DNA of 64,000 nucleotides from Roseomonas fluvialis (GCF_022846615.1 NZ_AP025637.1:5357001-5421000), one strand, 5' to 3'. Counted from the stretch's first letter, positions 3,743 through 18,093 are shown. A program made the numbers and translations. The notes: generated by a model not told the origin, from the sequence alone.

Positions 3743-4519
3743 ATGAAGTGGCAGGGCGGCGGCTGGGACCTCGAGGTCCTGGTCACGGGGTATCCGGGCA
3801 AGGCGGTGCTGCATGGGGGCCTGGGCTGGAGCACGGTGGTGCTTCTGCGCGGGCACGGCCGCATAGTCGTGCTGGACGGCGGCGGCTACGGGCTTCGGCG
3901 CCCGCTGGCCGAACACCTGAAGCAGCGCGGCATCGCGCTGTCCGACGTGACCGACCTGCTGATCAGCCATTCGCACCACGACCATTCGGTGAACTGGCCT
4001 ATGTTCCGCCAGGCACGCATCTGGATCGGGCGGGTGGAATTGGCCTGGGCGCTCGGCGTGCCCTGGGGCGAGACATCCGTGCCGGAACACACGATTGAGG
4101 CGCTGTCGCGCTGGCCGACGCTGCAGCTGATGGATGATGGGGACGAAGTGCTGCCAGGCATCGTGGCGCGCCTGGCGCCAGGCCACACCCCGGGCCACCT
4201 GATCTTCGTCATGACCGGCGACAGGCAGGATTGCGTGCTGCTGCAGGACGCAGTGAAGAACCGAGTTGAACTGACCACGCGGCGCACGGACATGACCTAT
4301 GACCCGGCGGTCAGCCGCGCCACCATCGACATGGTCTGGGAGATCTGCCGCGAACGCCCCGGCTGCCTGCTGATCCCGGGCCATGACCTGCCGATGGTGG
4401 TCGAGAACGGCGTGCCGCGGCCGATCGGGACGCAGCAGGCCGGCATCCGCGCCTGGTTCGGCGGCAGCCTGGACGAAACGACGCGCTACGACCTGGGACC
4501 TCTGGAGGGCACGCCATGA
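3743..4519 (+). CDS. metallo-beta-lactamase-fold hydrolase
   Basis: A 258-residue MBL-fold protein. The dinuclear metal motif HxHxDH is complete (H76, H78, D80, H81 in HSHHDH), and the later GHTPGH element gives the third histidine. A C-terminal GHD motif (IPGHD) matches the last ligand. The length and order of motifs resemble lactonase-type or glyoxalase II-like members without an attached domain. The substrate is not assignable; the adjoining class II aldolase and MetX-like hydrolase suggest a small-molecule ester, lactone or thioester. It overlaps the next gene by four bases (ATGA). Confidence 0.87.
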   Translation: MKWQGGGWDLEVLVTGYPGKAVLHGGLGWSTVVLLRGHGRIVVLDGGGYGLRRPLAEHLKQRGIALSDVTDLLISHSHHDHSVNWPMFRQARIWIGRVELAWALGVPWGETSVPEHTIEALSRWPTLQLMDDGDEVLPGIVARLAPGHTPGHLIFVMTGDRQDCVLLQDAVKNRVELTTRRTDMTYDPAVSRATIDMVWEICRERPGCLLIPGHDLPMVVENGVPRPIGTQQAGIRAWFGGSLDETTRYDLGPLEGTP

Positions 4520-5298
4520 ACGAGACATCGGCACTGCGCATCGCGCCACTGCAGGGGTCGGTCAGCGCCGCCGAATGGCAGGCGCGTGTCGACCTCGCGG
4601 CCTGCTACCGGCTCTGCGAGCGCTACGGCATGTCGGACATGATCTACACCCACATCACGGCGCGCGTGCCGGATGCGCCGGGTCAGTTCCTGATCAATCC
4701 GAATGGGCTGCTGTTCAGCGAGATGACCGCGTCATCCCTGCTGAAGGTGAACGGGGAGGGCGAGGTTCTGTATCGTCCCGACCTGCCCTATGGCCTGCAT
4801 CCGGCGGGCTTCACCATCCATTCCGCGATCTATCGCGCGCGGCCCGATGCGGCGGCGGCGATGCACACGCACACCATCGCCGGCATGGCGGTCAGCGCGC
4901 TGAAATGCGGGCTGCTGCCACTGACGCAGACCGCAACCCGCTTCTACGGCCGCATCGCCTATCACGACTTCCGCGGGCCGGAACGCGACCCGTCCGAGCG
5001 CGACCTGCTCGCGCAGTCCATCGGCCCGCTGAACTACTGCATCCTGCGCAACCACGGGCTGCTGACGCTCGGCGCCAGCGTCAGCGAGACGTTCATCGCG
5101 ATGTGGGGCCTGGAGCGCGCCTGCCAGGCGCAACTGGCGGCCATGGCCTGCAACACGGACCTGGAAATGCCGAGCCCCGCGGTGGTCGAGAAGTCGTGCT
5201 CGATGTACGCCCCCGGCAATTCGCGGACCTATGGCCCGCTGGAATGGCAGGGCCTGCTGCGCATGCTCGACCGCACCGACCCCGGGTTCCGGGACTGA
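4516..5298 (+). CDS. class II aldolase/adducin family protein
   Basis: A 260-residue protein of the class II aldolase/adducin fold (L-fuculose-phosphate aldolase relatives). Zinc-ligand histidines are visible in MHTHT near residue 116 and in LRNHGLLTLG near residue 180, which is the typical spacing. An early segment ending in HITARVPD matches the substrate loop. Members are metal-dependent aldolases or decarboxylases acting on hydroxy-acid or sugar phosphates, and many in Proteobacteria have unknown substrates. Translational coupling on both sides puts it in the same pathway as the MBL hydrolase and the MetX-like protein. Confidence 0.88.
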   Translation: MNETSALRIAPLQGSVSAAEWQARVDLAACYRLCERYGMSDMIYTHITARVPDAPGQFLINPNGLLFSEMTASSLLKVNGEGEVLYRPDLPYGLHPAGFTIHSAIYRARPDAAAAMHTHTIAGMAVSALKCGLLPLTQTATRFYGRIAYHDFRGPERDPSERDLLAQSIGPLNYCILRNHGLLTLGASVSETFIAMWGLERACQAQLAAMACNTDLEMPSPAVVEKSCSMYAPGNSRTYGPLEWQGLLRMLDRTDPGFRD

Positions 5299-5303
5299 CG
5301 CGC

Positions 5304-6305
5304 ATGGACTGGCCTGTTCAGGACGGAACCTTCGCGCTGGGCGACCTGGCGCTGAAGCGCGGCGGCGTGCTGCCGGATGCGAAGATCGTCTGGCGCGCGC
5401 ATGGCACGCTCTCGGCCGCACGCGACAACGTGGTGCTGTATCCCACCAGCTACGGCGCGCAGCACCCCGACCTCGAATGGCTGATCCGGCCGGATGGCGT
5501 GCTGGACCCGACGCGCTGGTTCATCATCATTCCGAACATGTTCGGCAACGGGCTGTCCTCCTCGCCGAGCAACACCGCGCCGTGGCCGGCGCTGGTCACG
5601 GCGCATGACAACGTGGCGGCGCAGAAGCGCCTGCTGCGCGACGTCTTCGGCGTGGATCGGCTGCACGCAGTCTATGGCTGGTCGATGGGCGCGCAGCAGG
5701 CCTATCACTGGGCCGCGGCCTACCCGGATGCGGTGGAGCGGGCGGTGATCAACTGCGGCAGCGCGCGCACCAGCACCCACAACCGGGTGTTCCTGGCTGG
5801 CATGATGGCGGTGCTGGAAGCGGCGCCGGAATTCGACGGCAGGGCGCTGTTCTCGGCCCAGCCCCGCGCGGCGTTGCGCGCCTTCGGGCGGCTCTATGCC
5901 GGGTGGGCGCTGAGCCAGGATTTCTATCGCGCGGACCTGCACCTGACCGCGCTGAAGGCCCCCGACCTCGAGACCTTCTATCGCACCGACTGGGAAGACC
6001 GCTTCGCCCGCCGCGACGCCGCCGACCTGCTGGCGATGCTGCGCACCTGGGATGCCGGAGACATCGCCGATGGCGGCGACCTGGCCGCCGCGCTGGGGGG
6101 CATCACCGCGCGCGTGCTGCTGATGCCATCCGAGACCGACCTGTATTTCCGCGTGGCCGACAATGCCGCTGAACTGCCGTATCTGAAGCACGGCCGGCTC
6201 GCGCCGATCGCGTCCATCTGGGGCCATCGCGCCGGCAATCCCGTGGCGAACCCCGACGACGCCGCCTTCATCACGCGCGAAGTGCGCGGCCTGCTCGGCG
6301 CTTAA
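5304..6305 (+). CDS. MetX-like alpha/beta hydrolase (homoserine acetyltransferase family)
   Basis: A 333-residue alpha/beta hydrolase that resembles homoserine O-acetyltransferase. It has the N-terminal 'YPTSYGA' strand, a GWSMGAQQ nucleophile elbow (Ser), an aspartate in SETDLYF and a histidine in WGHRAGNP near the C-terminus. MetX proper transfers acetyl from acetyl-CoA to homoserine, but many relatives are plain hydrolases. It is shorter than typical MetX (about 370-380 residues), and its operon partners are catabolic, so a hydrolase or acyltransferase in that pathway is more likely than a methionine enzyme. The start at 5304 lies five bases after the aldolase stop. Confidence 0.82.
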   Translation: MDWPVQDGTFALGDLALKRGGVLPDAKIVWRAHGTLSAARDNVVLYPTSYGAQHPDLEWLIRPDGVLDPTRWFIIIPNMFGNGLSSSPSNTAPWPALVTAHDNVAAQKRLLRDVFGVDRLHAVYGWSMGAQQAYHWAAAYPDAVERAVINCGSARTSTHNRVFLAGMMAVLEAAPEFDGRALFSAQPRAALRAFGRLYAGWALSQDFYRADLHLTALKAPDLETFYRTDWEDRFARRDAADLLAMLRTWDAGDIADGGDLAAALGGITARVLLMPSETDLYFRVADNAAELPYLKHGRLAPIASIWGHRAGNPVANPDDAAFITREVRGLLGA

Positions 6306-6359: not shown

Positions 6360-8498
6360 ATGTTGGCGCCAGACCTCACCGCCCTGCGCTGCCTGTTCCT
6401 CGTCGCCATGCACCATGGGCTGCACCTGGCGCCCGAGGAACTGCCGGAGGCGCAGGGGCCGGACATGCTGCCCGCGATGCTCGGCGCCATGCGGCGCGCG
6501 GGGCTGAAGGCGCGCGCCGTGACAGGCTGCGGCTGGGACAAGGCGGCGGCTCTCGGCACCGCCTACCCGGCCTTGGCGACGCGCCACGATGGGTCGTGGA
6601 TGATCCTGGTGCATGTCATGCCGGGGCCGGACGGCACGCCGATGGCCGCGGTGCTCGACCCGCAGCAGGAAGCGGCCGGCGTGCAGTTGGTCCCGCGCGA
6701 GAACTTCCTGGCCGACTGGTCCGGCACGCTGGTGCTGTGCCGCCGCGCCGAGCCCCTGCCGGCGGAAGACCGACCCTTCGGCCTGTCCTGGTTCCTGAAT
6801 GAGATCGCGAACCATCGCCCCTTCTTCGCTGGCGTGGCGGTGGCCGCTATCCTGTCGAACCTGATCGGCTTCGCGATCCCGCTGCTGTTCCAGGTGCTGA
6901 TCGACAAGGTGGTGCCGCACCAGGCCTGGCAGACGCTGACCGTGCTGGTGCTGGTCTTCGTGATGCTCGCCGCCTTCGACGGCTTCTTCCTGTACGCGCG
7001 GCAGCGGCTGATGCTGTTGGCGTCGAACAAGGTGGATGCGCGGCTGGGGTCGCGCAGCTTCGCGCACCTGCTGTCGCTGCCGCTGTCCTTCTTCGAAACC
7101 CATGCCGCCGGCGTGCTGGTGCGGCACATGCAGCAGACGGAAAAGCTGCGGCACTTCCTGACCGGGCGGCTGTTCCAGACGATGCTCGACGCGGCGCTGC
7201 TGCCGGTCCTGCTGGTGCTGCTTGCGATCTATTCCGGCGTGCTGACGCTGGTGGTGCTGGGCTTCTCGGCGGCGATCGCGCTGGTGATCGGGGCGATGGT
7301 GCCGGCTTTCCGGCGTCGGTTGAACGGGCTCTATGCGGCCGAGGGCGCGCGCCAGGCGCACCTGGTGGAAACCCTGCACAACATGCGCGCGGTGAAGTCG
7401 CTGGTGCTGGAACCGGCGCGGCAGCGCGCGTGGGATGGGCAACTCGCGACTGCCGTGCGCGCCCATGCCGATGTCGGGCGGATCTCGGCGCTCGGTGCCG
7501 TCAGCACGTCCGTGCTGGAACGGCTGATGCAGATCGCCGTGCTTGGGCTCGGTGCGACGCTGGTCTTCGATGGCAGCCTGACAATTGGTGCGCTGGTCGC
7601 CTTCACCATGCTGTCCGGCCGCGTGACCGGGCCGCTGGTGCAGATCGTCACCCTGATCAACGAGGCGCAGGAGGCAGCGCTGTCGGTGCGCATGCTCGGC
7701 ACCGTGATGAACACCAGGCCGGAACGCCGTGCGCGCGAACGCCTTTCGCGTCCACCAATTTCCGGCGCCCTGCGATTCGAGGACGTGACCTTCCGGTATC
7801 CGGGTGCGGCGATGCCCGCGCTCGATCGTGTCTCCTTCAGGGTCGAGGACGGCCAGGTCATCGGCGTGGTCGGTCGATCCGGCTCGGGCAAGACCACGCT
7901 GACGCGTTTGATCCAGGGCATCCATGCCCCGCAGGACGGGCTGATCCGCTTCAACGAGGCCGATCTGCGCACCATCGAGCTTGAGCACCTGCGCAGGAAT
8001 GTCGGCGTGGTCCTTCAGGAGAACCTGCTGTTCCGCGGCACGCTGCGCGACAACATCGCCGCCGCGCGCCCCGGCGCGCCCCTTCCGGAGGTGCTGGAAG
8101 CTGCCCGCCTGGCCGGCGCGCTCGAATTCATCGAGCGCCTGCCGCACGCGCTCGAGACGACGGTCGAGGAAGGTGCTGCCAACTTCTCTGGCGGTCAGCG
8201 CCAGCGCATCGCGATCGCGCGCGCGCTGCTGACCCGTCCACCGCTGCTCATCCTGGACGAAGCGACCAGCGCGCTCGACCCGGACAGCGAGGCGATCATC
8301 CAGGCCAACCTGGCGGAGATCGCGCGCGGGCGCAGCATGATCGTGGTGTCGCACCGGCTGTCCTCGCTGGTCGGCGCGGATTCGATCCTGGTGCTGGAAC
8401 AGGGGCGCGTGGCCGATTTCGCGCCGCACGACGTGCTGCTGCAGCGCTGCGATATCTACCGCCATCTGTGGCGGCAGCAGACGCAGCACCTGCGATGA
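6360..8498 (+). CDS. type I secretion ABC transporter with degenerate C39 domain (HlyB/LapB-like)
   Basis: A 712-residue inner-membrane exporter. Residues 1-130 form a C39 peptidase-like domain that is catalytically dead. Aligned on the conserved HHG, the catalytic cysteine position is occupied by Thr and the GH(Y/F) histidine position reads GSW. This resembles the C39-like domain of HlyB, which binds unfolded substrate instead of cleaving a leader. Residues about 150-430 hold the transmembrane bundle. The ATPase domain has Walker A GRSGSGKTT near 504-512, signature SGGQRQ near 610, Walker B LLILDEATSALD and switch SHRLSSL. It is the first gene of the repeat-protein cluster and overlaps the adaptor gene by four bases. 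The predicted substrate is the 1,449-residue protein encoded just downstream; the substrate pairing is inferred from position. Confidence 0.93.
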   Translation: MLAPDLTALRCLFLVAMHHGLHLAPEELPEAQGPDMLPAMLGAMRRAGLKARAVTGCGWDKAAALGTAYPALATRHDGSWMILVHVMPGPDGTPMAAVLDPQQEAAGVQLVPRENFLADWSGTLVLCRRAEPLPAEDRPFGLSWFLNEIANHRPFFAGVAVAAILSNLIGFAIPLLFQVLIDKVVPHQAWQTLTVLVLVFVMLAAFDGFFLYARQRLMLLASNKVDARLGSRSFAHLLSLPLSFFETHAAGVLVRHMQQTEKLRHFLTGRLFQTMLDAALLPVLLVLLAIYSGVLTLVVLGFSAAIALVIGAMVPAFRRRLNGLYAAEGARQAHLVETLHNMRAVKSLVLEPARQRAWDGQLATAVRAHADVGRISALGAVSTSVLERLMQIAVLGLGATLVFDGSLTIGALVAFTMLSGRVTGPLVQIVTLINEAQEAALSVRMLGTVMNTRPERRARERLSRPPISGALRFEDVTFRYPGAAMPALDRVSFRVEDGQVIGVVGRSGSGKTTLTRLIQGIHAPQDGLIRFNEADLRTIELEHLRRNVGVVLQENLLFRGTLRDNIAAARPGAPLPEVLEAARLAGALEFIERLPHALETTVEEGAANFSGGQRQRIAIARALLTRPPLLILDEATSALDPDSEAIIQANLAEIARGRSMIVVSHRLSSLVGADSILVLEQGRVADFAPHDVLLQRCDIYRHLWRQQTQHLR

Positions 8499-9841
8499 CC
8501 CGCCGCGTCAGCCTGCCCCGTCGTCGTCGCAAGCCGCCCGGCCCCACGCCGGAATCTGCGGCCTTCCAGGACCCGCTGGAAGCGGTCATGGCGGAACCCC
8601 CGCCGGCGCTGCTGCGCGGCGTGCATTGGCTGGTGGCGGCGCTGTTCGCGGGCCTCATCGGCCTCGCTGCCGTTGCGCAGGTGGATGTGGTGGTGACCGG
8701 CGCGGGGCGCCTCGCGCCCGATGCCCCGCCCATCGTGCTCCAGCCGATGGAACGCGCCGTGATCCGTGAGATCCGCGTGCGCCCCGGGGATGCGGTGCGC
8801 GCCGGCGACGTGCTGGCCTTGCTCGACCCCTCCTTCGCCGAGGCCGACCGGGCCGCGCTGGCCGCGCAGCGCCGCAGCCTGGTCGCGACGCTGGCGCGCA
8901 TCGAATCCGAACTCGCCGGCGCGCCCGCCCCGCCCGGCGAGGACCGTGACGCCCGCCTGCAATCCGGCTTGCACGCCCAGCGCGCCGCCTTCGTCACGAC
9001 GCGCCTGCAGGCCTTCGAGGAAGAAATGCGCGGCCACCGCAGCGCGATCCGCGCGCTCGAGGATGCCGACGCCACGGCCTCCGAACAGGTGGCGATCGCC
9101 CGCGACATCGAGGCGTTGCGAGCCCGTCTGCTGGAAGGACAGATCGGCTCGCGCCTCGCGCTGCTTGATGCTCGTGCACGGCGCATCGCCGCCGAGCAGC
9201 AGCGCGAACAGGACAGGGCGCGTCTGGACACGCTGCGCCACGCGCTGGCGCAGAAGCAGGCCGAGCGCCAGGGCTTCCTGGATGACTGGCGCCGTCAGTC
9301 ACTCGAGGAACTGGCGCGGCTGCGCGGTGACCTCGCACGGGTCGAGGAAGCCTTGGGCAAGGCCACGCGCCTGGCGGACCTGACCACCATCGTCGCGCCC
9401 GCCGACGGCACGGTGCTGGAGGTCGCGCGGCGATCGGCCGGGTCGATCCTGCGGGAGGCCGAGCCTCTGGTGACGCTGGTGCCAGCCGGAGCGCCACTGA
9501 TCGCCGAGGTCGCGCTGCGCTCCGCGGATATTGGCCAGGCGCATCCCGGCGATGCGGCGGTGGTGAAGGTCGATGCCTTTCCCTGGCAGCGCCATGGCGC
9601 GCTGGCCGGCAGGCTGCGCTCCATCGCGCAGGATTCGCGCGGCGAGGACGGTGCGCCCGCAGCACCCGGCGTCGCGCTGCATCGCGCGCAGGTCGTGCTG
9701 GACGCGCCACGCCTTGCAGGTGGCACGCCCATGCCGGGCATGACCGTGACGGCCGAGATCCATGTCGGCACCCGCAGCCTGCTTGCCACGCTGCTGCAGC
9801 CGCTGATACGCGGCGCGCGCGAGAGCCTCCGTGAGCCCTGA
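8495..9841 (+). CDS. HlyD-family type I secretion periplasmic adaptor
   Basis: A 448-residue membrane-fusion protein. A short basic cytoplasmic tail is followed by one membrane segment at about residues 43-62 and a first lipoyl half ending in IREIRVRPGDAVRAGDVL. A long Arg/Ala/Glu/Gln-rich helical hairpin spans about residues 110-300. The second lipoyl half contains the family motif APADGTVLEV, and a beta-barrel follows. In type I systems this protein links the ABC transporter to a TolC-type outer-membrane channel. No TolC gene is in this window, so the channel must be encoded elsewhere. The start at 8495 overlaps the transporter stop (ATGA). Confidence 0.93.
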   Translation: MTRRVSLPRRRRKPPGPTPESAAFQDPLEAVMAEPPPALLRGVHWLVAALFAGLIGLAAVAQVDVVVTGAGRLAPDAPPIVLQPMERAVIREIRVRPGDAVRAGDVLALLDPSFAEADRAALAAQRRSLVATLARIESELAGAPAPPGEDRDARLQSGLHAQRAAFVTTRLQAFEEEMRGHRSAIRALEDADATASEQVAIARDIEALRARLLEGQIGSRLALLDARARRIAAEQQREQDRARLDTLRHALAQKQAERQGFLDDWRRQSLEELARLRGDLARVEEALGKATRLADLTTIVAPADGTVLEVARRSAGSILREAEPLVTLVPAGAPLIAEVALRSADIGQAHPGDAAVVKVDAFPWQRHGALAGRLRSIAQDSRGEDGAPAAPGVALHRAQVVLDAPRLAGGTPMPGMTVTAEIHVGTRSLLATLLQPLIRGARESLREP

Positions 9842-9907: not shown

Positions 9908-9984
9908 TCCAAGCCGGTGCCCGATGTCGTCAGCCGCCTGCGCGGTCGGCGGCTTTGTCCAGCACGGACAAGAACCGGCTTGGA
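9908..9984 (+). promoter_or_regulatory. leader RNA stem that covers the ribosome-binding site of the repeat-protein gene
   Basis: An 11-bp perfect inverted repeat pairs 9908-9918 (TCCAAGCCGGT) with 9974-9984. Inside it lies a second hairpin, 9932-9938 with 9948-9954 (7 bp). The right arm of the outer stem includes three of the four bases of the GGAG Shine-Dalgarno sequence at 9982-9985, seven bases before the ATG at 9992. In mRNA this fold would hide the ribosome-binding site. Possible roles are a thermosensor-like switch, a protein-binding site or simple down-tuning. The pairing is seen; the regulatory role is inferred. Confidence 0.5.
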
Positions 9985-9991
9985 GCACGCG

Positions 9992-12900
9992 ATGACCGTC
10001 ATTTCCGCCCTGAACACCACGCAGATCCAGGGCCTGACCACCACGACCATCGCGGGGCTGACGACCACGCAGATCCGATCGCTGGCCGCGACCCAGCTGG
10101 CCGCGCTGACCACCACCCAGGTGGGCGTGCTGAACACCACGCAGGTCGCCGCGCTGACCACCACGCAGGTAGGCGCGCTGGAATCCACCGACATCGCCGT
10201 GCTCAGTACCACGCAGCTGCGCGGACTCGGCGCGAGCCAGGTCGGTGCGCTGACCACCACGCAGGTGAGCGCGCTGACCACCACGCAGATCGGTGGGCTC
10301 AGCGGCGCGCAGGTCGCGGGCTTCGACACCAGCGACATTGTGGCGCTGACCACCACGCAGGTGGGTGCGCTCAGCAGCACCCAGGCCGCGGCGCTGACCA
10401 CGACGCAGGTCCGCGCCCTGGAGACGACCGACCTGGCCGTGATCGGCACCACGCAGATCCGCGCGCTCTCCTCGGCGCAGGTGGCGTCGCTGACCACCAC
10501 GCAAGTGGGCGCGTTGACCACCACGCAGGTGGGCGCCCTGACGACCACACAGGTGGTCGCGCTATCCTCGACGCAGGTGGGTGCGCTGACCACCACGCAG
10601 CTCGGCGCGCTCAGCTCGACCCAGGTCGGTGTGCTGACTCAGCCGCAGCTGCGCGCGCTCGACACCACCGATATCGGTGCGCTGACCACGACACAGGTGG
10701 GTGGGTTGCGGTCCAGCCAGGTCGCTGCGCTGACCACCACGCAGATCGGCGCGATCGAGACCACCGACCTCGCGGTGCTGACCACGACGCAGCTGCTGGG
10801 TCTCAACACGCTGCAGGTCGCCGCCCTCAGCACGACGCAGGTCGCTGCGCTGACGACGACGCAGATCGGTGGGCTGGTGGCGCGTCAGGTCTCCGCGCTC
10901 GAGACCACGGACATTGCCGCCCTGACCACCACCCAGGTGGGCGCGCTATCCTCGAATCAGCTGGCCGCGCTCGGCACCGCGCAGGTCCGCGCGCTCGAAA
11001 CCACCGACCTCGCCGCGCTGACCACGACGCAGCTGCGCGGCCTGGGCGCGACGCAGGTTGGCGGGCTCACCACGACGCAGGTCGGAGCGCTGACGACCAC
11101 GCAGGTCGGCGGGCTGACGACCACGCAAATCTCGGGGCTGACGTCCACGCAGGTGGGTGCGCTGACAACGACGCAGCTCGGCGCGCTCTCCTCGACCCAG
11201 GTGGCGGGCCTATCCACCGTGCAACTGCGTGGCCTCGACAGCACCGATATCGGCGCGCTGACGACCACGCAGGTGGGCGGTCTGACCGCGGCGCAGCTCG
11301 GATCCCTGACCACGACGCAGGTCGGTGGGCTCGAGACGACGGACATCGCCGTGCTGACCACCACGCAGGTGCGCGGTCTGGGCGCCAGTCTGGTTGGTGC
11401 GCTGACCACCACGCAGGTTGGCGCGCTGACCACGACGCAACTTGCCGCCTTCACCGCCAGCCAGGTTGCCGGCTTCGAGACCACTGACATCGCTGCGCTG
11501 ACCACCACGCAAGTTGGCGCGCTGTCCAGTACGCAGACGGCCGCGCTGACCACGACACAGATACGCGCTCTCGAGACCACCGACCTTGCCGTCCTGACCA
11601 CAACCCAGCTGCGCGGCCTGACGGCGCCGCAGCTGGCGGCGCTGACCACGACGCAGGTCGGTGCATTGACCACCACGCAGGTGGGTGCGCTGACCACGAC
11701 GCAGGTGGGGGGGCTCACCTCCACCCAGGTGGGTTCGCTGACCACCACCCAGCTCGGCGCGCTGACCACCACGCAGGTGGGCGCCCTGAGCACGGCGCAG
11801 CTGCCGGGGCTCGACACCACCGATATCGGTGCGCTGACCACCACGCAGATGGGCGGGCTGCGCAGCGCGCAGATCGCCGGCCTCTCCACCGCTCAGGTTG
11901 CGGCGATCGAGACCACGGACCTGGCGGTGCTGGCCACCACGCAGCTGGTCGGGCTGACCGCGGCGCAGGTCACTGCGCTCACCACCACGCAGGTGGCGGC
12001 GTTGACGACGACGCAGGTTGCGGGCCTGACCACCGTGCAGGTCGCGGCGCTCCAGAGCACCGATGTCGGCGCCCTCACCACCACGCAGGTCGGCGCGCTG
12101 ACCACGACCCAGATCGGCGCGCTCGGCACCGTGCAATTGCGCGGTCTGGAGACAACCGACCTCGCGGTGCTCACGACAACGCAGGTGGGCGGGCTGCGCG
12201 CGACGCAGCTCGGTGCGCTGACGACCACGCAGTTGGGCGCCATCACCACCACGCAGGTCGCGGCGCTGACCACGACGCAGGTCGGCGGGCTGACCTCGAC
12301 CCAGGTCGGTGCGCTGACAACCACGCAAATCGGCGCGCTGGCCTCGACGCAGGTGGCGGCACTCAGCACGGCACAGCTGCGCGGCCTCGACACCACCGAC
12401 ATCGCGTCGCTGACCACCACGCAGGTGGGCGGGCTCACCTCCACGCAGGTCGGGTCCCTGACCACGACGCAGCTGGGCGGACTCGAGACGACCGACCTGG
12501 CCGTGCTGACCACGACGCAGGTGCGCGGCCTCGGTTCGGCGCAGGTGGCGGGGCTCACGACCACGCAGGTGGGCGCGCTGACCACCACGCAGGTCGGCGC
12601 GCTGACGCCGACCCAGGCGGCCGGCCTGACCACGACGCAGGTGGGTGTGCTGACCACGACCCAGTTGGGCGCGGTCGGCACGACGACGCTGCGTGGCCTT
12701 CTCCCGGCACAGATCGCCGCCCTGACCACAACCCAGGTCGCTGCGCTGACCACCACCCAGGTGGGCGCGCTGACCGCCACGCAGGTCGGCGGGCTGGAAT
12801 CGACCGACGTGGCGGCGCTGACCACGACGCAGATGGGTGCGCTGACCACCACGCAGGTCGCGGCGCTCTCCACCACCCAGCTGCGCGGGGTCGAGACCAC

Positions 12901-14341
12901 CGACCTCGCGGTGCTCACCACCACGCAGCTGCGTGCGCTCGGTGCCACGCAGATCGGCGCCCTGACCACCACGCAGACCGAGGCACTCACCACCACGCAG
13001 GTCGGCTCGCTCACTACGACGCAGCTGGGCGGGCTGTCATCGACCCAGGTCACGGCGCTGACCACCACGCAGCTTGGTGCGCTCGCATCCAGCCAGGTGG
13101 GCGCGCTGACCACCGCGCAGCTGCGCGGACTCGACACCACGGACATCGTGGCGCTGACCACGACCCAGGTGGCGGGCCTGGCCAGTTCGCAGATCGCGGG
13201 GTTGACCACGACGCAGGTCGTGGCGCTCGAGACGACCGACCTCGCTGCCTTGACCACCACGCAGCTGCGCGGGCTGAACACCACCCAGGTGGCCGGGCTC
13301 AGCACCACGCAGGTGGGCGCGCTCACCACGACGCAGCTCGGTGGCCTGACCTCCGCCCAGGTGGCGGCGCTGACCACCACGCAGGTGGGTGCGCTGACCA
13401 CGACGCAGGTCGCCGGGCTCGGCACCACGCAGGTGCGCGGGTTCACCACCGCGCAGCTCGCTGCGCTGAGCACCACGCAGGTGGGCGCGCTGACCACGAC
13501 GCAGATCGGCGCAGTGTCGGTGGCGCAGCTGCCTGGGATCGAGACCACCGACCTCGCCGCCTTCACCACCACGCAGATCGGCGCGCTGACCCGCACGCAG
13601 GTCGGTGCGCTGGCCACCGCGCAGGTCCGCGCGCTGGAGACCACCGACCTGGCGGTTCTGACCACCACGCAGGTTGGGGGCCTGGTGGCCTTGCAGGTTG
13701 AGGCGCTGACCACCACGCAGGTGAACGCGCTGACCACGACGCAGCTGGCAGCGCTGACCACCACGCAGGTGGCGGCCCTCAGCACGACGCAGGTCGGCGT
13801 GTTGACCACGACGCAGGTCGGCGCCCTGGGCACCACGCAGGTTCGCGGCTTCTCCTCAGCCCAGGTGGCGGCGCTGACCACCACGCAGGTGGCGGCCCTG
13901 ACCACCACGCAGATCGGTGGGCTGGGGGTCACGCAGGTCCGTGGCCTGGAGACCACCGATGTCGCGGTGCTGAACACGACGCAGGTGGGTGCGCTGACCT
14001 CGACCCAGGTCAATGCGCTGACGGCGCCGCAGATCGCAGCCCTGACCTCGACCGCGATCGGGGTGCTGACCACGACGCAGCAGGTGGGCCTCACCTCGAG
14101 CCAGATCGGCGCGCTGACCACGACGCAGGTGGCCGCGCTCAGCACCACCGGCGTGGTGGCGCTGACCACGACGCAGGTGGCGGGCCTGACCACGACGCAA
14201 GTCGCGGCCTTCACCACGACGCAGGTCGGCGCGCTCGAGACCTCCGACATCGCCGCCCTGTCCGACACGCAGGTGGCAGGCTTCACCACCACGCAGATCG
14301 GCGCGATGACCACCGCCCAGGTGAACGCCCTGTTCGCCTGA
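9992..14341 (+). CDS. giant Thr-rich octapeptide-repeat protein, predicted type I secretion substrate
   Basis: A 1,449-residue protein: MTVIS, then exactly 180 consecutive octapeptides, then ALFA. The consensus is A/G-L-T-T-T-Q-V/I/L-G/A (for example ALTTTQVG). By hand count it holds about 384 Thr (about 26%). It has no Lys, His, Cys, Trp or Tyr. Twenty-five octads are acidic variants such as LETTDLA. There is no Sec signal, no membrane span and no RTX nonapeptide GGxGxDxUx. I do not recognise the family. The preceding T1SS transporter and adaptor suggest C-terminally signalled export, and the two following OGT-like glycosyltransferases suggest O-glycosylation of the Thr runs. A fibrous, adhesin-like or surface-coat role is plausible. 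GGAG lies seven bases before the ATG. Two hydrophobic positions per octad (2 and 7) fit either a beta-solenoid or short capped helices. Confidence 0.9.
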   Translation: MTVISALNTTQIQGLTTTTIAGLTTTQIRSLAATQLAALTTTQVGVLNTTQVAALTTTQVGALESTDIAVLSTTQLRGLGASQVGALTTTQVSALTTTQIGGLSGAQVAGFDTSDIVALTTTQVGALSSTQAAALTTTQVRALETTDLAVIGTTQIRALSSAQVASLTTTQVGALTTTQVGALTTTQVVALSSTQVGALTTTQLGALSSTQVGVLTQPQLRALDTTDIGALTTTQVGGLRSSQVAALTTTQIGAIETTDLAVLTTTQLLGLNTLQVAALSTTQVAALTTTQIGGLVARQVSALETTDIAALTTTQVGALSSNQLAALGTAQVRALETTDLAALTTTQLRGLGATQVGGLTTTQVGALTTTQVGGLTTTQISGLTSTQVGALTTTQLGALSSTQVAGLSTVQLRGLDSTDIGALTTTQVGGLTAAQLGSLTTTQVGGLETTDIAVLTTTQVRGLGASLVGALTTTQVGALTTTQLAAFTASQVAGFETTDIAALTTTQVGALSSTQTAALTTTQIRALETTDLAVLTTTQLRGLTAPQLAALTTTQVGALTTTQVGALTTTQVGGLTSTQVGSLTTTQLGALTTTQVGALSTAQLPGLDTTDIGALTTTQMGGLRSAQIAGLSTAQVAAIETTDLAVLATTQLVGLTAAQVTALTTTQVAALTTTQVAGLTTVQVAALQSTDVGALTTTQVGALTTTQIGALGTVQLRGLETTDLAVLTTTQVGGLRATQLGALTTTQLGAITTTQVAALTTTQVGGLTSTQVGALTTTQIGALASTQVAALSTAQLRGLDTTDIASLTTTQVGGLTSTQVGSLTTTQLGGLETTDLAVLTTTQVRGLGSAQVAGLTTTQVGALTTTQVGALTPTQAAGLTTTQVGVLTTTQLGAVGTTTLRGLLPAQIAALTTTQVAALTTTQVGALTATQVGGLESTDVAALTTTQMGALTTTQVAALSTTQLRGVETTDLAVLTTTQLRALGATQIGALTTTQTEALTTTQVGSLTTTQLGGLSSTQVTALTTTQLGALASSQVGALTTAQLRGLDTTDIVALTTTQVAGLASSQIAGLTTTQVVALETTDLAALTTTQLRGLNTTQVAGLSTTQVGALTTTQLGGLTSAQVAALTTTQVGALTTTQVAGLGTTQVRGFTTAQLAALSTTQVGALTTTQIGAVSVAQLPGIETTDLAAFTTTQIGALTRTQVGALATAQVRALETTDLAVLTTTQVGGLVALQVEALTTTQVNALTTTQLAALTTTQVAALSTTQVGVLTTTQVGALGTTQVRGFSSAQVAALTTTQVAALTTTQIGGLGVTQVRGLETTDVAVLNTTQVGALTSTQVNALTAPQIAALTSTAIGVLTTTQQVGLTSSQIGALTTTQVAALSTTGVVALTTTQVAGLTTTQVAAFTTTQVGALETSDIAALSDTQVAGFTTTQIGAMTTAQVNALFA
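10007..14326 (+). repeat. 180 tandem 24-bp units with a 576-bp higher-order period
   Basis: Octad n starts at 10007+24(n-1), and all 180 units keep register. Acidic octads (TD type) are numbers 8, 14, 18, 28, 32, 38, 42, 52, 56, 62, 66, 76, 80, 86, 90, 100, 104, 117, 121, 131, 135, 148, 152, 165 and 177. Their spacing repeats as 6, 4, 10, 4 (sum 24 octads, 192 residues, 576 bp) for four full turns (10175-12478). From octad 104 the first interval becomes 13, giving a 31-octad turn (13, 4, 10, 4), and the pattern then decays. Thr codons alternate freely between ACC and ACG, so the copies are not recent identical expansions. Confidence 0.93.
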
Positions 14342-14365: not shown

Positions 14366-16345
14366 ATGGCCAGAATGGGCATTGCCGAGCTGGTGGGCAG
14401 CGCGCAGGCGCTGGCCACCCGGGGGCAGGTGGCCATGGCCGCGGAATTGTACCGCGACTGGGTGGCGCTGAACCCCGACGACCCGCTGCTGCACGCTGCG
14501 GAGTTCAACCGCGGCGTATTGTTGGCCGGCCTGGGGGATACGCATGGCGCGGTTGAGGCCTTCTCCGCCGCCATCCGTCGCAAGCCGGATTTCTTGCCGC
14601 CCTACATCAACCTGGGTGCGGCCTATGAACGACTGGGCGCCGGCGCGCAGGCCTTCGGGCATTGGTCGCATGTCACGGGCAGCCTGGCGGCGCTGAATGG
14701 CGACAGCATCACGTGGAAAGCCACGGCGCTGAAGCAGATGGCGCAGATGCTGGAAGGCGCGCGCCGCCTGTCGGAAGCCGAGGACACGCTGCGCCAGGTG
14801 GCGGAGCTCATGCCCTGGCAGCGCGACGTGGTGCAGCACTGGATCAGCCTGCGTCAGCGGCAATGCCAGTGGCCGCTGCTGCAGCCGCTGGCGGGGCATG
14901 ATCGCGCCGCGCTGCTGCGCCAGATCGCGCCGCTGTCCATCGCGTGTCATGCCGACGACCCGATGATGCAACTGGCCGTCGCGCACGCGCATGTGGCGAA
15001 GGACCACGGCACACCGGATCGCTTCCGCGTCACGGCGGATTTCGCCGACCGCATCGGCCAGGTGCCGGGCCGCCGGCTGCGCGTGGGCTACCTGTCGTCC
15101 GACCTGCGCGAACACGCCATCGGTTCGCTTATGGCCGGGATGTTCGCCCTTCACGACCGCTCGCAGGTCGAGGTTTTAGCCTACTACTGCGGCGTCCCGC
15201 AGGAGGACGCGACCAAGGCGCGCATTCGCGATTCGGTCGAACACTGGCGTGACATCACGCCGATGGACGACGACGCGGCCGAGGCGCTGATGCTGGCCGA
15301 TGGCGTGGATATCCTGGTGGACGTGAACGGTCATACGCGCAGCGCACGCACACGGCTTCTGGCGCGCCGGCCCGCGCCGATCATCGTCAACTGGCTGGGC
15401 TTTCCGGGCAGCATGGGCAGCCCCTACCACCACTACATCATCGCGGACCCCACCATCATTCCGCTGGGTCACGAACAGTTCTATTCCGAGCGCGTCGCGC
15501 GCCTGGCCTGCTACCAGCCAAACGACCGCGCGCGCCCGATGGGCGACACCCGCGCGCCGACCCGTGCCGAACACGGCTTGCCCGAGGACGCGACGGTCTT
15601 CTGTTCCTTAAACGGCACGCAGAAGATCACGCCCTTCGTCTTCGGCCGCTGGATGGCGATCCTGCGCGGCGCACCCGGCAGCGTCCTGTGGTTGCTGAAA
15701 TCCTGCGACGAGGTCGAGGCCCGGCTGCGCGCCCAGGCCGCGGCCGCGGGTGTGACGCCCGAGCGCATCGTCTTCGCGCCCATCATGGGCAACCGCGCGC
15801 ACCTGGCGCGCTACGCTCTGGTCGACCTGTTCCTCGATACGCTGCCCTATGGCGCGCACACCACGGCGTCGGATGCGCTCTGGATGGGCGTTCCGGTGCT
15901 GACCGTCCCGGGGCGGTCCTTCGCGGCGCGGGTCTGTGCCTCGCTCGTGCAGGCCGCCGGGCTGCCGGATTTCGTCTGCGACCGCGCGGAGGACTACGTC
16001 GCTCGCGCCATCGCCTTCGGTCGCGACCGTGCTGCGCTGGCGCCGTTCCGCGCGAGGCTGGTCGAAGGCCGCGGTAAGGCGCTGCTGTTCGACACGCCGC
16101 GTCTGGTGCGCGACCTGGAAGCGCTGTTCCGCGGCATGTGGGACGACTTCGCGCAGGGTCGCCTGCCGCAGCCGGATCTCACCAACCTCGATGCCTACCT
16201 GGAATGCGGGGCGGCCATGGACCATGACGGCGTGGAAGCCAGCTTCGACTCCACGCTGGACGACCGCTGGCGCGAAGCGGTTGCGCGACGGCATGCGTAC
16301 GCACCGCTGCCGCGCGATGCGCGCTACCACCCGGCCGCGGGCTGA
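14366..16345 (+). CDS. TPR-containing O-GlcNAc transferase-like glycosyltransferase (GT41/SPINDLY family), first copy
   Basis: A 659-residue protein. Residues 1-140 contain tetratricopeptide-like helical repeats (a segment with FNRGVLLAGLGDTHGAVEAF, then PPYINLGAAYERLG). From about residue 236 the OGT catalytic region begins with RLRVGYLSSDLREHAIGSLM. H250 sits at the place of the conserved N-lobe histidine of OGT, and K420 in the NGTQKITP segment matches the UDP-binding lysine. The C-lobe motif DLFLDTLPYGAHTTASDALW is intact. Family enzymes transfer GlcNAc or another sugar from a nucleotide donor to Ser/Thr hydroxyls. AGGGAGA precedes the ATG, 24 bp after the repeat-protein stop, so the two are probably one transcript. 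The likely acceptor is that Thr-rich protein (inference). Confidence 0.9.
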   Translation: MARMGIAELVGSAQALATRGQVAMAAELYRDWVALNPDDPLLHAAEFNRGVLLAGLGDTHGAVEAFSAAIRRKPDFLPPYINLGAAYERLGAGAQAFGHWSHVTGSLAALNGDSITWKATALKQMAQMLEGARRLSEAEDTLRQVAELMPWQRDVVQHWISLRQRQCQWPLLQPLAGHDRAALLRQIAPLSIACHADDPMMQLAVAHAHVAKDHGTPDRFRVTADFADRIGQVPGRRLRVGYLSSDLREHAIGSLMAGMFALHDRSQVEVLAYYCGVPQEDATKARIRDSVEHWRDITPMDDDAAEALMLADGVDILVDVNGHTRSARTRLLARRPAPIIVNWLGFPGSMGSPYHHYIIADPTIIPLGHEQFYSERVARLACYQPNDRARPMGDTRAPTRAEHGLPEDATVFCSLNGTQKITPFVFGRWMAILRGAPGSVLWLLKSCDEVEARLRAQAAAAGVTPERIVFAPIMGNRAHLARYALVDLFLDTLPYGAHTTASDALWMGVPVLTVPGRSFAARVCASLVQAAGLPDFVCDRAEDYVARAIAFGRDRAALAPFRARLVEGRGKALLFDTPRLVRDLEALFRGMWDDFAQGRLPQPDLTNLDAYLECGAAMDHDGVEASFDSTLDDRWREAVARRHAYAPLPRDARYHPAAG

Positions 16346-16350
16346 ACGCC

Positions 16351-18093
16351 ATGGCGCCGCTCGACACCACCGGCGAACCACTGGAGATCCTGCTGCCGCG
16401 CATCGAGGGCGCCGCACCGGCCGCCGCCATCGCCGCCTACAATGCCTGGCTGGCGGAGAACCCGTCCTCCCCGCAGCGCTTCGCGGCCTGGTTCAATCTT
16501 GGCGTCGTCCTCGCGCAGTCCGGCGATCGCGCCGCGGCCATGATCGCCTATCGCCAGGCGCTTTCGCTCAAGCCCGACCTGCACCAGGCGCAGGTGAACC
16601 TGGGCCTGGCATTGGAAGCGGAAGGCCGCGCCGACGAAGCGCTCGCGTTGTGGTCTGGCGCGTTGCAGCCCAACGAGGCACGCCTGCCCCTGCTCAACCA
16701 CCAGGGCCGCCTGCTGGAGACACGCAAGGACTACGCCGGCGCCGAGCGCGCGCTGCGGGCCAGCCTGCTGATCGACCCGCGGCAGCCCGATGTGGTGCAG
16801 CACTGGTCGCACCTGCGTCAGAAGGGCTGCATGTGGCCGCTCGATGGTGGCGGTATACCGGGCCTCACGCCCGATGCGCTGGCGCTGCTGGGCGGGCCGC
16901 TCGGCGCGCTCGCGCTGACCGATGACCCGGCCCTGCAGCGGCGCATCGCCACCGCCTGGATCGACCGCAAGGTGCCTGCCGCGCCGGAGCGCCTGGCCCC
17001 TGTGCAGGGCTACCGCCACGCGCGCATCCGCGTGGGCTACCTGTCGTCGGATTTCTGCCGCCACGCCATGGGCTTCCTGATCGCCGGCCTGCTCGAACGC
17101 CACGACCGCAGCCGCTTCGACATCTACGGCTACTGCTCGACCGACGAAGACCGTTCCGACCTGCGCCGCCGCATCGTCTCCGCCTTCGACCACCACGTTC
17201 CGATCGGCCACCTGTCCGACGAAGCCGCCGCGCGCCGAATCCGCGCCGACGAGATCGACGTCCTGGTGGACCTCAATGGACTTACGCGTGGCGCGCGCCT
17301 GGCTGCGCTGCGCTGGAAGCCCGCGCCGGTGCAGGCGACCTACCTCGGCTATGTCGGCCCGGTGCCGATCCCCGAACTCGACTGGATGATCTGCGACAGC
17401 GTGGTGGTGCCGGCCGACCAGGCGGATCACTACGCGCCGCGCCCGCTGCCGCTCGATGGCCTGTACCAGGCGAATGACGATAGTGCGCCACCGCCCGCGC
17501 CGGCCAGCCGCACCGATGAAGGCCTGCCCGACGACGCCTTCGTGCTCGCCTGCTTCAACAACTTCTACAAGATCACGCCGGATGTGTTCGCCGCCTGGAT
17601 GCGCATCCTGCACGGGTTGCCGAAGGCGCTGCTGTGGATGACCGATGACAACGCGACGGGCATCGCCAACCTGCGCGCCGCAGCGCAGGCCGCCGGCATC
17701 GCGCCCGATCGCATCCTGTTCGCCTCCCGCTGCGACCCGCAGCGCTATCTTGCACGGCTCGGCTGCGCCGACGTGTTCCTGGATACCTTTCCCTACAATG
17801 CCGGCACGGTGGCGTCCGATGCGCTGCGCATGGGGCTGCCGATCGTCACCCTGGCCGGGCGGTCCTTCGCGTCGCGCATGGCGGCCAGCCTGCTGACCGC
17901 GGCAGGGCTGACCGAGGGTGTCGCCACCACGCTCGACGACTACGTGGCGGCCGCGCTGCGCTACGGGCGCGATCCTGCCGCGCTGTCTGCCGCGCGCGCC
18001 GCGCTGTCCGGTGGCGCCTGGCTGCGCAGTGGCGGCAATGCGGAAGCCTTCACGCGGCGGATGGAGGCGGCGCTCAGCGCGATCCGGCTTTGA
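16351..18093 (+). CDS. TPR-containing O-GlcNAc transferase-like glycosyltransferase (GT41/SPINDLY family), second copy
   Basis: A 580-residue paralogue starting five bases after the first copy stops. TPR-like repeats occupy residues about 30-150 (FAAWFNLGVVLAQSGDRAA, HQAQVNLGLALEAEGRADEA). The catalytic part starts near 225 with RIRVGYLSSDFCRHAMGFL, where H238 is the conserved histidine. K407 in FNNFYKITPDVF matches the nucleotide-binding lysine of OGT more closely than the first copy does. The C-lobe has DVFLDTFPYNAGTVASDALR. The two copies are clearly diverged, not a recent duplication, so they may add different sugars, build a two-sugar glycan or use different acceptor contexts. The last 20 bases overlap the convergent DUF488 gene. 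Confidence 0.9.
   Translation: MAPLDTTGEPLEILLPRIEGAAPAAAIAAYNAWLAENPSSPQRFAAWFNLGVVLAQSGDRAAAMIAYRQALSLKPDLHQAQVNLGLALEAEGRADEALALWSGALQPNEARLPLLNHQGRLLETRKDYAGAERALRASLLIDPRQPDVVQHWSHLRQKGCMWPLDGGGIPGLTPDALALLGGPLGALALTDDPALQRRIATAWIDRKVPAAPERLAPVQGYRHARIRVGYLSSDFCRHAMGFLIAGLLERHDRSRFDIYGYCSTDEDRSDLRRRIVSAFDHHVPIGHLSDEAAARRIRADEIDVLVDLNGLTRGARLAALRWKPAPVQATYLGYVGPVPIPELDWMICDSVVVPADQADHYAPRPLPLDGLYQANDDSAPPPAPASRTDEGLPDDAFVLACFNNFYKITPDVFAAWMRILHGLPKALLWMTDDNATGIANLRAAAQAAGIAPDRILFASRCDPQRYLARLGCADVFLDTFPYNAGTVASDALRMGLPIVTLAGRSFASRMAASLLTAAGLTEGVATTLDDYVAAALRYGRDPAALSAARAALSGGAWLRSGGNAEAFTRRMEAALSAIRL

Follow-up and report, generated by a model that had tools for sequence, protein, structure and literature searches.

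Two diverged GT41 glycosyltransferases in tandem beside a threonine-rich octad-repeat gene: a candidate position-specific O-glycosylation system in Roseomonas fluvialis

Among the closest described systems, the HMW1A/HMW1C pair of Haemophilus influenzae consists of a secreted adhesin and a GT41 enzyme, encoded together with the adhesin's transporter (PMC3983070). The locus described here resembles it in combining a large, presumably exported protein and a transporter with a GT41 enzyme that would be cytoplasmic and dedicated, and in its probable use of small sugars. HMW1C, however, is an N-glycosyltransferase working with two-partner secretion, whereas our locus carries two TPR-containing enzymes, with predicted threonine acceptors and predicted type I secretion. 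FlmG of Caulobacter crescentus is, like ours, an alphaproteobacterial enzyme combining TPRs with a GT-B domain; its TPR domain binds the substrate and glycosylation precedes export, but it transfers pseudaminic acid onto flagellins (PMC7591256). HMW1C (PMC3983070) and FlmG (PMC7591256) both provide precedents for glycosylation ahead of export. The nearest bacterial structures, XcOGT (2JLB) and TtOGT (5DJS), share the TPR and GT41 fold and a Tyr at the sugar-pocket position; neither bacterial lysates nor peptides are reported to be modified by XcOGT, and TtOGT is reported to be inactive in vitro (PMC9715652). Bacterial OGT homologues such as these have no established natural acceptor, whereas the loci described below offer a linked candidate. 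Finally, the plant protein O-fucosyltransferase SPINDLY is a GT41 enzyme with TPRs and a gating Tyr (Y744); it differs in using GDP-fucose, while both enzymes studied here keep the Asp at the D925 position.

The window, a stretch of 64,000 nucleotides from Roseomonas fluvialis (NZ_AP025637.1:5357001-5421000), belongs to a 5.48 Mb genome in one contig, that of a Neoroseomonas-type member of the Acetobacteraceae with Neoroseomonas and Roseomonas as its relatives. It contains a block of five genes, with both GT41 genes at its end:

6360 to 8498, + strand: HlyB-like type I secretion ABC permease/ATPase, 712 aa (Pfam ABC_membrane and ABC_tran)
8468 to 9841, + strand: HlyD-family type I secretion adaptor, 457 aa (TIGR01843, 275 bits against a cut-off of 208.65)
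9992 to 14341, + strand: ALTTAQ octad-repeat protein (PF20080), the proposed acceptor and export substrate
14366 to 16345, + strand: OGT1, TPR and GT41 glycosyltransferase, 659 aa, proposed to modify octad position 4 (p4)
16351 to 18093, + strand: OGT2, TPR and GT41 glycosyltransferase, 580 aa, proposed to modify octad position 3 (p3)

The best NCBIfam model for the HlyB-like protein is type_I_sec_HlyB, at 587 bits, below the model's cut-off of 725, and a Pfam search found no C39 peptidase domain in it. A gene for a TolC-like outer membrane protein adjoins the octad locus of Pseudomonas asturiensis. The genes downstream of OGT2 are ordinary ones (DUF488, malic enzyme, solute-binding protein, MutS, GlnD). 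On the other side, a 640-aa ORF at 4383-6305 ends in a MetX-like alpha/beta hydrolase half, has no Pfam match over its N-terminal 315 residues, and occupies a place beside hlyB that is not conserved.

The original prediction of two diverged OGT-like enzymes in tandem, with N-terminal TPRs, is borne out. Both ORFs are intact, 5 bp apart, and their products are about 40% identical; both match the Pfam GT41 model (PF13844; 257.7 bits for OGT1 and 225.3 bits for OGT2, cut-off 25) and carry a short N-terminal array of TPRs recognised by Pfam models. The closest solved structures to both are human OGT and XcOGT. The catalytic residues named from the start are H250/K420 for OGT1 and H238/K407 for OGT2; they correspond in alignment to H558/K842 of human OGT and are invariant among ten OGT1 orthologues and nine diverse OGT2 orthologues. 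The motif around the Lys does differ as claimed, NGTQKITP against NNFYKITP (the shorter NFYKITP first reported for OGT2 begins at N404). Directly before the Lys, 48 of the 57 OGT1-type rows that can be read (those of Rhizobiaceae among them) have Gln, and the 20 readable OGT2-type rows all have Tyr; as read from these alignments, the differences are clade signatures. A second difference had been overlooked: at the position of human H920-T921-T922, OGT1 has the phosphate-binding His-Thr-Thr motif while OGT2 has Gly-Thr-Val or Gly-Thr-Ile. Asparagines on the inner face of the TPRs are invariant in both enzymes (N48 and N82 in OGT1; N49, N83 and N116 in OGT2). As first put forward, the short TPR arrays may match the octad pitch. 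The HMW1C-like N-glycosyltransferase model NF049992 gave 19.5 bits with OGT1, against a cut-off of 1000, and no match with OGT2. AlphaFold2 run on OGT1 with a ten-row alignment reached a pLDDT of 52 and yielded no usable model.

The gene adjoining OGT1 encodes a protein that is almost wholly repeat. Its ORF opens at 9917 (GTG) and ends at 14341, but the ATG at 9992, directly ahead of the repeats, is the likelier start. About 180 octads extend over about 1,449 aa, 26% of which are Thr, and 52 stretches match PF20080, the ALTTAQ repeat (1076 bits). The octad has the form L-T-T-T-Q-V-x-x, with Leu at p1, a Thr-rich triplet at p2-p4 and Gln at p5; RTX calcium repeats (GGxGxD) were looked for in the protein and none was found. 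AlphaFold2 folded a 320-aa fragment as a helical solenoid (pLDDT 95, pTM 0.84) with one short helix per octad spanning p3-p7, p2 as the preceding cap, and p3 and p4 within the first turn; the helix register of this model suggests that p3 and p4 would be exposed. Foldseek searches with the model returned weak matches only (mesothelin, TM-score about 0.3). In the literature searched, in which subscription journals are poorly covered, no paper names ALTTAQ or ties these enzymes to octad proteins. Among related genes, the octad protein of plasmid pA of Cereibacter sphaeroides 2.4.1 (NZ_CP030273.1, locus L217, 8931-13616; WP_011836189.1) bears the label 'ICE nucleation protein', probably an annotation error prompted by the Thr-rich repeats, and the octad genes of Pseudoroseomonas cervicalis (locus L212, 1606-6726) and Pseudomonas asturiensis (locus L213, 4386-11827) are split into several consecutive ORFs, which suggests frameshifts or repeat-caused sequencing errors.

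The order hlyB-hlyD-octad-OGT1-OGT2 is found in all ten congeners that have OGT1, one of them on a contig that does not extend to hlyBD, whereas the genes around the block vary. By contrast, none of nine other GT41 loci of the genus, belonging to neither enzyme type, has an octad neighbour. A search with the OGT1 sequence alone found relatives, among named genomes, in Roseomonas, Neoroseomonas, Paracraurococcus, Pseudoroseomonas, Methylorubrum and Rhizobiaceae, with an octad gene alongside wherever the contig reaches. Conversely, searches starting from octads showed that OGT1- and OGT2-type genes adjoin Thr-rich octads and not Thr-poor ones. Of 318 genomes in the class, just three besides the own genome carry OGT1-type genes, and these are the three that have strong Thr-rich octads; four genomes with only Thr-poor octads have no enzyme of either type. 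Both clades are octad-linked across Alphaproteobacteria, several lineages have only OGT1 or only OGT2 next to an octad gene, and the tandem order is kept in several genera. Because this linkage is conserved in many genera, the octad protein is the likely acceptor of both enzymes. Five Thr-poor octad proteins have no GT41 gene nearby and apparently form a branch of this repeat family that lacks glycosylation.

A tree of 83 GT41 domains places the 42 OGT1-type and the 28 OGT2-type rows in separate clades, each with an SH-aLRT of 100, and GT41s without octad link fall outside both; the tree indicates that the two clades are anciently separate. A recent tandem duplication as the origin of the pair was rejected, since non-octad GT41s separate the clades. 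Single ORFs of about 2,500-3,800 aa holding several tandem TPR-GT41 units were also seen in four genomes of another class (for instance locus L187, 312-7868), where octad genes are numerous too; such fused multi-enzyme glycosyltransferases look unusual.

The composition of the octads follows the enzymes present. Octads were parsed with one emission shared by p2-p4, so that Thr did not set the register, and loci were de-duplicated. The median Thr content at p4 is 78% in loci with OGT1 only (58-94, n=11) and 79% in loci with both enzymes (56-95, n=13), against 9% in loci with OGT2 only (2-33, n=19), with no overlap between the last range and the other two; several of the octad genes are cut by contig ends. 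In loci bearing OGT2, at least 74% of octads have Thr or Ser at p3, although Thr at p3 is not exclusive to these loci and occurs in several OGT1-only ones. Genome-wide searches found no OGT1-type enzyme elsewhere in the OGT2-only genomes. The p4 pattern was first seen in loci gathered for other reasons and held in newly fetched genomes and on named plasmids: in Cereibacter sphaeroides 2.4.1, with OGT2 on plasmid pA (p4 Thr 12%, p3 Thr plus Ser 96%), in Pseudomonas asturiensis (p4 Thr 15-26%), and in Pseudoroseomonas cervicalis, which has both enzymes (p4 Thr 65-72%). Even within three genera the octad tracks enzyme content, with p4 Thr of 7% and 4% against 87% in one, 10% against 94% in another, and 5% against 56% and 88% in the third. 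All 45 rows of the OGT2 tree agree with the pattern; a per-locus p value overstates the evidence, as there are only four state changes on this tree, giving 3-4 independent pairs, on which the sign test is weak (3 pairs, p 0.25). Exceptions exist. At Rhizobiaceae loci, an OGT1 relative (45-48% identity) stands beside octads that are Ser/Thr-rich at p3 and have only 4-18% Thr at p4, and a Shinella locus has Thr-poor octads; specificity may have shifted in these lineages, or the rule may fail there. Locus L159, from another class and with a fused multi-GT41 ORF, has 60% Thr at p4 without a separate OGT1 and was kept out of the groups above.

The reading we favour, with a probability of roughly 0.65, is that OGT1 and OGT2 are a dedicated pair of cytoplasmic GT41 protein O-glycosyltransferases for the octad protein encoded directly upstream. 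OGT1 would glycosylate the p4 Thr and OGT2 the p3 Thr (or Ser), both on the unfolded chain in the cytoplasm and ahead of export; the adjacent HlyB/HlyD type I system would then export the modified, still unfolded chain. Outside the cell the chain is predicted to fold into a long helical solenoid with a Thr starting each short helix. The sugar would be small, probably xylose or a hexose, and probably UDP-carried. The octad system would apparently work like HMW1A/HMW1C, with O-linked instead of N-linked sugars, type I secretion, and two enzymes that appear to be position-specific.

The same association could arise if lineage-wide repeat turnover set the balance of Thr and Ala at p4 and both enzymes acted on any octad Thr. 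The small number of independent changes, the concerted evolution of the repeats and the Rhizobiaceae exception agree with such an account; yet the switches are concordant in three genera as well as in other orders and classes, and p4 Thr in OGT2-only loci (median 9%) is depleted even relative to octads without any GT41 (about 11-37%), so that we consider turnover improbable as the explanation.

The original prediction offered sequential sugars or two sets of Thr positions as the reason for having two enzymes, and of these the second is supported, by comparative evidence, in the tracking of p4 Thr with OGT1. Were the sugars sequential, one enzyme would place the first sugar on Thr and the other would extend it to a disaccharide, which would suit two different GT41 enzymes in one operon and their differing nucleotide and sugar sites (His-Thr-Thr and Gln before the Lys against GTV/GTI and Tyr). 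In several lineages, however, an octad gene has only OGT1 or only OGT2 beside it, and the enzyme present must start on protein there, so sequential action is not required; nor would the arrival of an extension enzyme predict a shift in the Thr position of the octad. This scheme also seems to us a poor candidate.

In the GtfA/GtfB pair of streptococcal serine-rich repeat proteins, an enzyme works with a helper. A similar division of labour, one GT41 being catalytic and the other positioning the substrate, fits the tandem order kept in several genera, but both clades retain the catalytic His and Lys, and either enzyme can stand alone, making it very unlikely. That the enzymes have an unrelated substrate, for example flagellin, which the TPR-containing cytoplasmic FlmG modifies (PMC7591256), with the octad link due to chance, is scarcely credible given a linkage conserved over many genera and the Thr-poor octads that lack these enzymes.

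With position-specific modification by the pair as the working model, some evidence bears on the donor. At the position of human C917, Tyr is present in 56 of the 57 OGT1-type rows and all 48 of the OGT2-type rows that could be read; it has been argued, in work on SPINDLY, that the residue at this position sets the size of the pocket and that Tyr disfavours GlcNAc (PMC9715652). In several genera the cluster contains or adjoins a gene for UDP-glucuronate decarboxylase (UDP-xylose synthase; 436 bits to human UXS1). UDP-GlcNAc, among the donors first put forward, is weakened by the Tyr in both enzymes, and together with the UDP-xylose synthase gene beside OGT1 loci this makes it an unlikely donor. 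By hand count, the decarboxylase gene is present in 7 of the 20 genera with OGT1 and in none of the 11 that have OGT2 only (p 0.03). Because the gene goes with OGT1 loci, UDP-xylose is a reasonable guess for the OGT1 donor and no more. The decarboxylase gene was seen at ten loci, all with OGT1, and its place in Pseudoroseomonas is between hlyD and OGT1; the genome studied here has a 75% identical copy outside the locus. Rather speculatively, the repeats could amount to a written glycosylation code in which each clade reads one Thr position, at least OGT1 uses UDP-xylose, and the product is a secreted rod with up to about 250 sugars per chain; we hold this fuller version to be doubtful.

Octad loci predict which Thr each enzyme modifies, and single-enzyme loci are available in cultivated species, including Cereibacter sphaeroides 2.4.1, an organism used in the laboratory. 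If the favoured reading is true, the repeat sequence would reveal acceptor specificity, and the enzymes would be tools to place sugars at a chosen position.

Clustering of neighbouring genes at 30 representative loci covered the surroundings of the octad genes. A methyltransferase (PF13578) recurs beside octad clusters, at locus L131 (2542-3528) and as relatives at six further loci, and in Cereibacter sphaeroides a methyltransferase gene follows hlyD; methylation of the sugar or of the protein is a possible role.
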